A stretch of DNA of 25,563 bases. It comes from a virus. Of the stretch, positions 15,924 to 25,563 are shown piece after piece. How positions within the stretch are numbered: position 1 is the stretch's first letter; each line of letters begins with the position of its first letter. Location: the IMG/VR virus record IMGVR_UViG_3300048588_000094, positions 1 to 25,563 of that record. One strand, 5' to 3'. The translations under genes were made by a program, and so were the position numbers. Under the pieces are notes generated by a model. The model searched no databases. It was not told the origin of the DNA and saw only the letters and a program-made list of their open reading frames with translations.

Positions 15924-15929
15924 AGTCCC

Positions 15930-15938
15930 ATTTTACCA
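15930..15938 (-). promoter_or_regulatory. Extended -10 TGGTAAAAT, leaderless geometry, HNH gene
   Basis: TGGTAAAAT ends 6 nt before the HNH ATG. Expected transcription would begin at the A of the start codon. The spacing is the same as at three other genes in this genome. Confidence 0.5.
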
Positions 15939-15959
15939 CTTTGCGAACAAACATAAGGC

Positions 15960-15989
15960 TTGTTTTGTGGCTATTGTTGGTGGTATAAT
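15960..15989 (+). promoter_or_regulatory. Plus-strand promoter TTGTTT-18-TATAAT with extended -10
   Basis: TTGTTT at 15960-15965 and TGGTATAAT ending at 15989 are separated by 18 bp, giving a start near 15996. It is the only strong plus-strand promoter I see, and it points away from the HNH gene into the gene-free stretch. Confidence 0.6.
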
Positions 15990-15995
15990 CGTATC

Positions 15996-16479
15996 ACCTA
16001 GTCGATTTGTATAGTCGAAAACAACACAAAAAAACTAGGGGTATAAGGTAAAAGCCAGACGGTAGATATGAAAAAATACCGCCTCTGTTTCTTATGGTAA
16101 GAGATTGTGCGATTTGTACAGTCGAATACCTACGATACTAGCACGCTTTCACTCTGTACACAAGTACCTTTACACGATTTGAGATACTTACCCCTCAATA
16201 AAAACACAAGGGTAACTGTCTGGTGATTATAAAATGTCTCGCAACGACGCCCACTGTCGACGAGCACCTGATACCCGAAAGGGTCGCATAGTCCTATAGC
16301 CGAGGTTTCAATATAAGGCAGGGCGATCACTCTTGACAGAATAATAAACAGTTGAGTAAACGTCTGGGTTTATCGCCATACGAGCCGACTACAGTGTAAA
16401 GACCACGCCTCGCCTACTGCCGATCGCAACATATCAGGTATAGAGTGGGTAGTGCCCAGACAACGCCTGAAAGCGTTGT
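15996..16479 (+). ncRNA. Possible structured plus-strand RNA
   Basis: A transcript from the plus-strand promoter would run through gene-free sequence with several stems: CCTAG with CTAGG near its 5' end, CGGTA with TACCG near 16060-16082, CCC-GAAA-GGG near 16274, a long-range 7-bp pair GTCTGGG/CCCAGAC enclosing about 86 nt, and an end hairpin CAACGC-CTGAAA-GCGTTG. There is no U-run after the last hairpin, so the 3' end is unclear; an earlier end near 16095 after the CGGTA stem is also possible. The size is within the range of large ornate phage RNAs such as ROOL or GOLLD, but I see no proof of kinship. Confidence 0.25.
16003..16126. repeat. Two 17-bp operator-like sites (16003-16019 and 16110-16126)
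   Basis: CGATTTGTATAGTCGAA and CGATTTGTACAGTCGAA differ at one base and lie 107 bp apart in the same orientation. Each begins CGA and ends TCG(A), so each is an imperfect palindrome. They flank a stem with A-runs in the gene-free stretch, which suits binding of a phage or host regulator or of terminase. There are only two copies and the spacing is too long for a CRISPR array. Confidence 0.55.
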
Positions 16480-16515
16480 AAAAATTAGCAAAAAATCAAA
16501 AAAATCGCCGAAAAA
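16480..16515. other. Phased A-tracts (likely bent DNA)
   Basis: Four runs of five to seven A residues at about 16480, 16490, 16498 and 16511 are spaced roughly one helical turn apart. This predicts intrinsic curvature, as found at origins, packaging sites and upstream promoter elements. Confidence 0.5.
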
Positions 16516-16539
16516 TCGACGTTTCACCCCTGTTATTTG

Positions 16540-21263: not shown

Positions 21264-21431
21264 CTACGGTTTGTAGCATACTGTGTTACCGCTTTCGAGT
21301 GTCCGACAGACGCTCGGGCGGTTGGCGTACTCGGCGTCGTTGTGTCCGACTATGCCGAGTGCGATTACGAAAAACGCCACGGCTCCGATCGCCTTTAGTT
21401 TTGTTTTGACTGTTTGTTTTTTGTTGCCCAT
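21264..21431 (-). CDS. Small single-span membrane protein
   Basis: This encodes 55 residues from the ATG at 21431 (MGNKKQTVKTKLKAIGAVAF). GGAAAGGA lies upstream at a rather long spacing; a longer reading from 21485 lacks any ribosome site. A basic head precedes one hydrophobic segment (about residues 14-28), then a short periplasmic or extracellular tail with two cysteines (SVCRTLESGNTVCYKP) that could form a disulphide. It may be a secreted or anchored early protein, such as one acting in superinfection exclusion; this is speculation. First gene after the early promoter. Confidence 0.65.
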   Translation of the reverse strand: MGNKKQTVKTKLKAIGAVAFFVIALGIVGHNDAEYANRPSVCRTLESGNTVCYKP

Positions 21432-21568
21432 TTTGTTGAGTGTGTCCTTTCCCGAGGTCGGCTTACGACGCCTCGTAGACGTCATAAGCTCGGCTCGTGT
21501 TTATGGTGTCGCTTTGTTTGGGTGTCGCTCTTGGCTCTACTACCCTCGCCGTCGCCTGCGTTACTACG

Positions 21569-21597
21569 ATTATAGCATACTTTCGCATAGCACAAGT
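21569..21597 (-). promoter_or_regulatory. Early-operon promoter with TGCTATAAT
   Basis: TGCTATAAT (21577-21569) is preceded by ACTTGT at 17 bp (21597-21592). The start would fall near 21562, giving a leader of about 130 nt to the first gene. The leader contains GACGTC and GGCGTCG repeats that could fold. The promoter lies 37 nt past the terminator of the upstream unit. Confidence 0.65.
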
Positions 21598-21633
21598 ACT
21601 TTATCGTACGATTTTCGCAGACTTATACACAAG

Positions 21634-21660
21634 CAAAAAGCCCGATCTTTCGACCGAGCT
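21634..21660 (-). terminator. Rho-independent terminator with GAAA loop
   Basis: A 9-bp stem (AGCTCGGTC with GATCGGGCT, two G-U pairs) closes a GAAA tetraloop and is followed by TTTTTG. It ends the small RNA and the glutaredoxin unit. Confidence 0.85.
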
Positions 21661-21743
21661 TTCGACTTTCATAAGCCTCTCATTTTTCTAGCTCCCGACT
21701 AGAAAGGACAGACGGCAGGGGGTGGGCACCTACCGCCTAGTCC
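21634..21743 (-). ncRNA. Probable 110-nt small RNA with three hairpins
   Basis: An extended -10 box sits just upstream and a rho-independent terminator closes the unit, with no credible gene between. From the 5' end: hairpin 1 (21743-21706) pairs GGAC with GTCC and GCGGTAGG with CCTGCCGT around a C-rich loop; hairpin 2 (21705-21685) has a perfect stem TTTCTAG/CTAGAAA with loop TCGGGAG and abuts hairpin 1 directly, so the two could stack; a purine-rich linker (AATGAGAGGCTTATGAAAG) follows; the third hairpin is the terminator with a GAAA loop. GACTAG at the 5' end can alternatively pair with CTAGTC in hairpin 2, so two folds are possible. No known RNA family is recognised. Regulation of early genes or a host RNA is an inference. 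Confidence 0.55.
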
Positions 21744-21749
21744 GTCATA

Positions 21750-21758
21750 ATTATAGCA
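21750..21758 (-). promoter_or_regulatory. Extended -10 promoter TGCTATAAT for the small RNA
   Basis: The motif lies 17 nt after the stop of the 40-codon gene. The start near 21743 falls exactly on the first base of the first hairpin (GGAC), which supports the assignment. There is no clear -35 box. Confidence 0.6.
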
Positions 21759-21774
21759 CAAGCGAGTAGGGCGT

Positions 21775-21897
21775 CTATAGCTCTGGTGGGTCGATCACGT
21801 CGGGTAGCATACAGTCGTCGCACGTGTAGTCAAAGGCAGGCGAGCCGTCGTCGTTCGAGCCGTGGGCACCGCACCCGACACGTTGGCTATCGTCCAT
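21775..21897 (-). CDS. 40-residue Cys/Asp-rich protein
   Basis: The frame starts MDDSQRVGCGAHG and ends LPDVIDPPEL, with Cys at 9, 26 and 29 (TCDDC) and several Asp. The cysteines could bind zinc, but spacing alone does not prove it. Its ATG lies 11 nt inside the end of the glutaredoxin gene (ATGGACGATAG), implying coupling; there is no strong ribosome site. It is too short for firm support, but composition fits the genome. Confidence 0.5.
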   Translation of the reverse strand: MDDSQRVGCGAHGSNDDGSPAFDYTCDDCMLPDVIDPPEL

Positions 21898-22135
21898 TGA
21901 GACCGTCTACGATTTCGATTACACGGGGCAGGTTGAGACCTACTACGACAGTCATACCGACGGCTAGCTGGGGTATGATAATTGAGTTCGACCAGACCTG
22001 CACCTCGGCAAACTTTTCGGGGTGTTCGTCCACGTCGATATAGTCAAACTGCACGCCCTTTTTGGTTAGATAATTTTTCAGCATACGACACGGTGCACAA
22101 GTCGATCTGCCGTAGAGTTTTGGTATCATAACCAT
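21887..22135 (-). CDS. Glutaredoxin-like / NrdH-type redoxin
   Basis: This encodes 82 residues from the ATG at 22135 (MVMIPKLYGRSTCAPCRML), chosen because GAGGT lies about 6 nt upstream. An ATG at 22129, with TATAGT exactly 6 nt before it, is an alternative leaderless start. The CAPC motif (Cys13, Cys16 of the 82-residue form), FDYIDVDEHPEKFAEV, then IPQLAVGM (the cis-Pro region) and a closing helix match the glutaredoxin/NrdH family. Such proteins feed ribonucleotide reductase or reduce disulphides. No reductase gene is in this genome, so it would use a host partner. It stands alone with the 40-codon gene in a small unit. Confidence 0.85.
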   Translation of the reverse strand: MVMIPKLYGRSTCAPCRMLKNYLTKKGVQFDYIDVDEHPEKFAEVQVWSNSIIIPQLAVGMTVVVGLNLPRVIEIVDGLNGR

Positions 22136-22347: not shown

Positions 22348-22357
22348 TAGCAGGGCA

Positions 22358-22452: not shown

Positions 22453-22461
22453 ATTATAGCA
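22453..22461 (-). promoter_or_regulatory. Extended -10 promoter TGCTATAAT
   Basis: The same nine bases as before the portal, terminase, early operon and small RNA. It lies 20 nt past the last lysis-region stop and points at the terminator. Confidence 0.55.
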
Positions 22462-25182: not shown

Positions 25183-25563
25183 TTATACCGTACCCTTGAA
25201 AGTAGCATATAACTGCCCTGCGAAACTGTTAGTCTTGTCGGCGAGGGCATTGACGACAGTGATAGAGGCTGTCGCACCCTTACCCCTCATCTTAAACGTA
25301 ACGGTTGTGTTTGCTGGGACGACATACAAACCTCGTAGGTTTGCTGTTTCCCACGACGTACCCTCTTGATAGTGGCTACTGCCGACCTGCACGTTAGACC
25401 CCGTAGCTATAAACATTTCACAGCCAGCCGACGAGGTAGTAAGTATGTCAGCACATACCTCAATAAGCTCGTCTTTACTGCCAGCCGTCCAGCTTATGCC
25501 GAAACCTAAAACGTCAGACGTGGCACCACTACTGATAACCTGCCTAGACCCCGTATAATTGCC
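25183..25563 (-). CDS. Large tail protein / tail fibre, C-terminal part (continues from base 1)
   Basis: This is the 3' end of the gene that starts at 1615. The frame enters across the joint as GFGISWTAGSKDELIEVCAD, TTSSAGCEMFIATGSNVQVG, and ends FAGQLYATFKGTV. The C-terminal region is small, beta-rich and Gly/Ala-rich, like a receptor-binding or cap domain. The last 127 bases of the window repeat the first 127, so this part is unique up to 25436. Confidence 0.85.
   Translation of the reverse strand, partial: GNYTGSRQVISSGATSDVLGFGISWTAGSKDELIEVCADILTTSSAGCEMFIATGSNVQVGSSHYQEGTSWETANLRGLYVVPANTTVTFKMRGKGATASITVVNALADKTNSFAGQLYATFKGTV
25437..25563. repeat. Right copy of 127-bp terminal overlap
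   Basis: Identical to bases 1-127. The two copies show that the sequence closes into a 25,436-bp circle. Confidence 0.95.

Follow-up and report, generated by a model that had tools for sequence, protein, structure and literature searches.

The minus-strand stretch at positions 21743–21634 of this phage genome is likely to be a real, stand-alone non-coding RNA gene that is transcribed, as had been proposed from the letters alone; the proposal is now backed by a promoter motif, the predicted fold, a terminator, strand asymmetry and conservation. The fuller account that we consider the best explanation, a stand-alone gene whose product would act in trans during infection, we hold with about even confidence. 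The RNA would count among the phage-encoded sRNAs, a broad kind that is already known, and no known family takes it in.

Genomic setting of the RNA stretch

The window, which is the whole 25,563-base IMG/VR record, carries a 127-base direct terminal repeat (positions 1–127 and 25437–25563), and because of this repeat the phage assembly of 25,436 bases (~25.4 kb) is apparently complete and closed. The genes that can be recognised are on the minus strand and comprise an HNH endonuclease, the large terminase, portal, capsid and tail genes, an endolysin, a glutaredoxin and the early block; the nearest isolate relative by terminase is the Lactobacillus phage c5 group. The RNA stretch is placed at the late/early boundary, 3′ of the glutaredoxin gene and of a 40-aa ORF with CxxH and CxxC motifs, and 5′ of the first early gene. 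The 40-aa ORF (21897–21775, minus strand) overlaps the end of the glutaredoxin gene, has its stop codon 16 nt ahead of the extended −10 motif of the RNA, and shows a single change in relatives, which is synonymous. The first early gene downstream of the RNA (21485–21264, minus strand) would encode a small protein with a hydrophobic segment, and ATG 21431, with GAAAGGA upstream, may be a likelier true start for it than ATG 21485. A 10-bp leader hairpin, GCUUAUGACG/CGUCGUAAGC, at 21489–21461 of the same strand covers ATG 21485.

Promoter motifs

The extended −10 promoter motif of the RNA gene, TGCTATAAT (TTGTGCTATAAT), lies at 21758–21750 on the minus strand, with its TG at 21758–21757, TATAAT at 21755–21750 and a 6-nt spacer to the predicted +1, G21743, and it is kept in both of the relatives considered below. 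The coding strand holds five copies of TGNTATAAT and the opposite strand one, where 0.19 are expected per shuffled strand, and the coding-strand sites fall in intergenic gaps in a genome of which only 8.6% is noncoding. Since it is both over-represented and situated in gaps between genes, TGNTATAAT very probably serves the phage as a promoter element.

A second extended −10 promoter with TGCTATAAT is found 3′ of the RNA terminator, at 21577–21569 on the minus strand, and presumably serves the early operon separately. This second promoter, lying past the terminator, gives the RNA unit a boundary at either end, and an early operon that has its own downstream promoter makes a leader role for the RNA unnecessary. 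We picture RNA polymerase starting from the extended −10 promoter at 21758–21750 and making a non-coding transcript of ~108 nt, which would end at its own terminator as a discrete RNA, while transcription of the early operon would begin at a separate promoter, 57 nt downstream.

Predicted fold and terminator

The 110 nt fold with a minimum free energy of −50.1 kcal/mol, compared to −32.95 ± 3.94 kcal/mol for dinucleotide shuffles (z −4.35, 0 of 200 as good), and the opposite strand of the same stretch reaches a z of only −1.72. Among 5091 minus-strand segments of 110 nt, −50 kcal/mol was reached in only one other area, 6838–6684, which is coding.

The elements that had been read in the original prediction, namely the extended −10, a hairpin starting at the predicted +1, abutting stems, a purine-rich linker and a GAAA-loop terminator, were all found on the minus strand. 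Stem-loop 1 (21743–21706, +1 to +38) has 14 bp with one U bulge, and its first base is the predicted +1; its apical loop, UGCCCACCC, is C-rich, and CCCACC is unpaired with a probability above 0.7 as one of the few unpaired patches of the molecule. Stem-loop 2 (21705–21685, +39 to +59), with 8 bp and the loop CGGGA, follows with no base between it and stem 1. Beyond it come the unpaired 7-nt linker AAUGAGA (21684–21678), a weak third hairpin of 5 bp (21677–21664) that was absent from the earlier list of elements, and the intrinsic terminator (21663–21635), composed of a 12-bp stem (21663–21636), a GAAA loop and U5. In a dedicated scan this terminator was the strongest canonical hairpin terminator on the coding strand; it was missing from the output of a consensus terminator scan, probably because the stem runs into the T run. 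The stretch has, as sequence motifs, the promoter and the terminator of its own that are looked for in an sRNA gene. Its supposed lack of a credible coding frame holds as well: ATG 21682, which is lost in one relative, opens a 4-codon frame, and ATG 21672 opens a 23-codon frame with differing ends in the relatives. We know of no phage sRNA in which two abutting stems at +1 lead into a linker, a third hairpin and a terminator.

The suggestion that the 5′ end might act as a switch by pairing GACTAG with CTAGTC fared less well. The two hexamers are indeed perfectly complementary, but the alternative fold reaches −38.3 kcal/mol compared to −50.1 kcal/mol, and is thus 11.8 kcal/mol worse, its pairing probability in the ensemble is 0, and stem 1 would have formed once nt 38 is reached, ahead of the synthesis of CUAGUC. 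We regard such a switch as having next to no likelihood. Separately, the stem junction UCCUUUCUA resembles a 16S rRNA 3′ tail, but the junction is wholly base-paired and the likeness was noticed post hoc.

Conservation and search for relatives

IMG/VR was scanned for relatives by terminase, endolysin, glutaredoxin and early protein and by capsid alignment, and the region was present in only two contigs besides this record, with ~93% identity around the RNA; a contig with a 78% terminase ends short of the RNA region. The RNA differs by 0 and 1 changes per 110 nt in the two relatives, the lone change lying in the unpaired linker, which holds the sole varying position. The 148 nt between the RNA and the early gene contain 12 and 10 changes, the early gene itself 24 and 44 changes in 222, and the neighbouring genes vary by roughly 4–20%. 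Equal conservation was seen in 112 of 3440 overlapping 110-nt segments, arranged in four blocks, and the conserved block over the RNA (21628–21745) adjoins a block over the small ORF. The combined span of 21628–21940 means that part of the conservation of the RNA may reflect recent shared local ancestry. All 39 pairs are invariant in the three near-identical sequences, which offer no stem change for judging covariation.

The position exactly on the late/early junction also invites a reading in which the functional part is the terminator, ending the late (lysis/glutaredoxin) transcript, with the hairpins stabilising its 3′ end and the promoter yielding at most a by-product. The late/early junction of phage c5, where terminator T2 is followed by promoter P1 with no annotated RNA gene, is in line with such an arrangement. 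However, it would leave unexplained why a dedicated extended −10 should stand just before stem 1, and why two stems besides the terminator should be conserved. We consider it unlikely on the whole, and rank it next after the trans-acting sRNA gene.

That no recognised family would claim the RNA was also borne out: Rfam release 15 gave 0 matches at the gathering threshold in the window and the relatives, nothing credible at E ≤ 10 (the best, BTnc231, had 22.3 bits against a threshold of 80.4), and a tRNA/tmRNA search of the sequence returned none. A covariance model of the RNA (R1) recovered just the three known copies from 1.2 Mb of terminase relatives and no credible copy from 19 viral records, phage c5, other loci and ~200 bacterial genomes, the best extra match having 12.6 bits and an E of 0.3. 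BLAST of phage and plasmid collections returned short matches only, the plasmid ones hitting the terminator part. Searching IMG/VR for the patterns of stem 1, of stem 2 and of the promoter with its start led to the same two relatives only, and 16 other matches to the stem-2 pattern were discarded, as they failed to fit the covariance model. With so small a number of close relatives, and without a known host, these empty searches are weak evidence. For now the RNA is a candidate seen in a single narrow clade, in three near-identical phages.

Predicted pairing with phage transcripts

For the loop-1 segment, predicted pairing is stronger at phage start regions than at random coding-strand sites (P 4e-4), but with phage ribosome-binding sites it does no better than same-composition shuffled loops, of which 69 of 200 were as good. 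Full cofolding of the RNA with phage start regions gave a best gain of −8.3 kcal/mol, and 30 of 30 shuffled RNAs paired more strongly, in a comparison that is biased toward the shuffles, which fold less tightly. In these target tests the first early gene was taken to begin at 21428, 3 nt off 21431, and the conclusions are unaffected. The pairing models lend no support to antisense action on phage mRNAs.

A particular form of such a role would be antisense action on the early leader, in which the 5′ arm of the terminator, GUCGAAAGCUCGG, would bind CCGAGCUUAUGAC, a part of the hairpin in the leader of the ORF at 21485. The two are complementary at 12 of 13 positions, counting one G-U pair; however, 10 of 200 shuffles (5%) equal this complementarity, cofolding yields only −3.9 kcal/mol and is bettered by 59 of 60 shuffles, and the GUCGAAAGCUCGG segment is locked within the terminator stem. 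We therefore think it very improbable that the RNA acts in this way.

Known systems and possible modes of action

Known phage-encoded sRNAs, such as PreS of lambda (~88 nt), sar of P22 (68/69 nt) and SprY of prophage phi12 (~125 nt) (PMC12197685), are likewise short, non-coding and of similar size, and no sequence or family relation between them and the RNA was detected. Another likeness is to Gram-positive sRNAs of the RsaE/RoxS type, which are ~100 nt long with an exposed C-rich motif, and in the case of RsaE such motifs act on G-rich ribosome-binding sites (PMC6435200). The UGCCCACCC loop is an unpaired C-rich motif of this type. Unlike RsaE/RoxS, the RNA is without an Rfam match, carries its C-rich motif only once and lacks an unpaired C-rich stretch joining its stems, and its pairing with phage start regions is no better than chance.

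If the trans-acting sRNA gene is the correct reading, what acts in the infected cell would be either the stable folded body of the RNA or its exposed C-rich loop, and the putative partner might be a host factor or, as for C-rich-loop sRNAs of Gram-positive bacteria, the G-rich ribosome-binding sites of host mRNAs. This action on a host partner is tentative and weakly held. Most of the RNA is double-stranded in the predicted fold, and shuffled RNAs outdo it in pairing with phage start regions, which is the ground for considering a folded-body action; that it might represent a new phage RNA family working as such a body, binding protein or polymerase, for example as a put-like antiterminator outside the lambdoid phages, seems to us rather improbable.

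The put RNA of HK022 deserves separate consideration, because a cis antiterminator of this type, whose abutting 5′ stem-loops bind their own polymerase, would here cause read-through into the early operon. The layout of putL, with a promoter, two adjacent stem-loops, a terminator and then the early genes (PMC9378689), is shared by the present locus. On the other hand, HK022 is of an unrelated phage group, the two-stem region spans 59 nt here and about 70 in put, and the early operon has a separate promoter-like site downstream, past the terminator. Nor is there a further canonical terminator before 17041 for such an element to suppress, and positions +23 to +28 read CCCCUG and not the −10-like NANNAT common to all putL sequences at these positions (PMC9378689). 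We judge a put-type function in cis to be improbable.

Small RNAs of small phages without known hosts are hardly catalogued. If expressed, the RNA considered here would be a compact and well-bounded one, with its own promoter and its own terminator, in which an effect on the host could be tested; a fold this tight allows few base-pairing modes and narrows the range of possible actions.

Other features of the genome

A second unit of TGCTATAAT promoter plus terminator, at 22461–22358 on the minus strand, would yield an RNA of ~89 nt; its fold has a z of −2.1, and it carries 5 and 3 changes in the two relatives. Pairing between the RNA and this second unit was rejected by cofolding. Upstream of the glutaredoxin gene, at 22348–22298 (minus strand), three direct copies of CCACTTCCCCGAC(C) lie inside a very stable predicted structure and are possible origin or protein-binding repeats. 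The endolysin (24753–23314, minus strand) has two CW_7 repeats and an N-terminal region with membrane segments that looks like a fused holin. Lastly, ~600 bases without a clear gene at 15924–16539, adjoining the HNH endonuclease, are possibly a cos or origin region; they contain hairpins and a sequence closely resembling the promoter at 21577 (GTACTTGTG...TGCTAGTATCGTAG).
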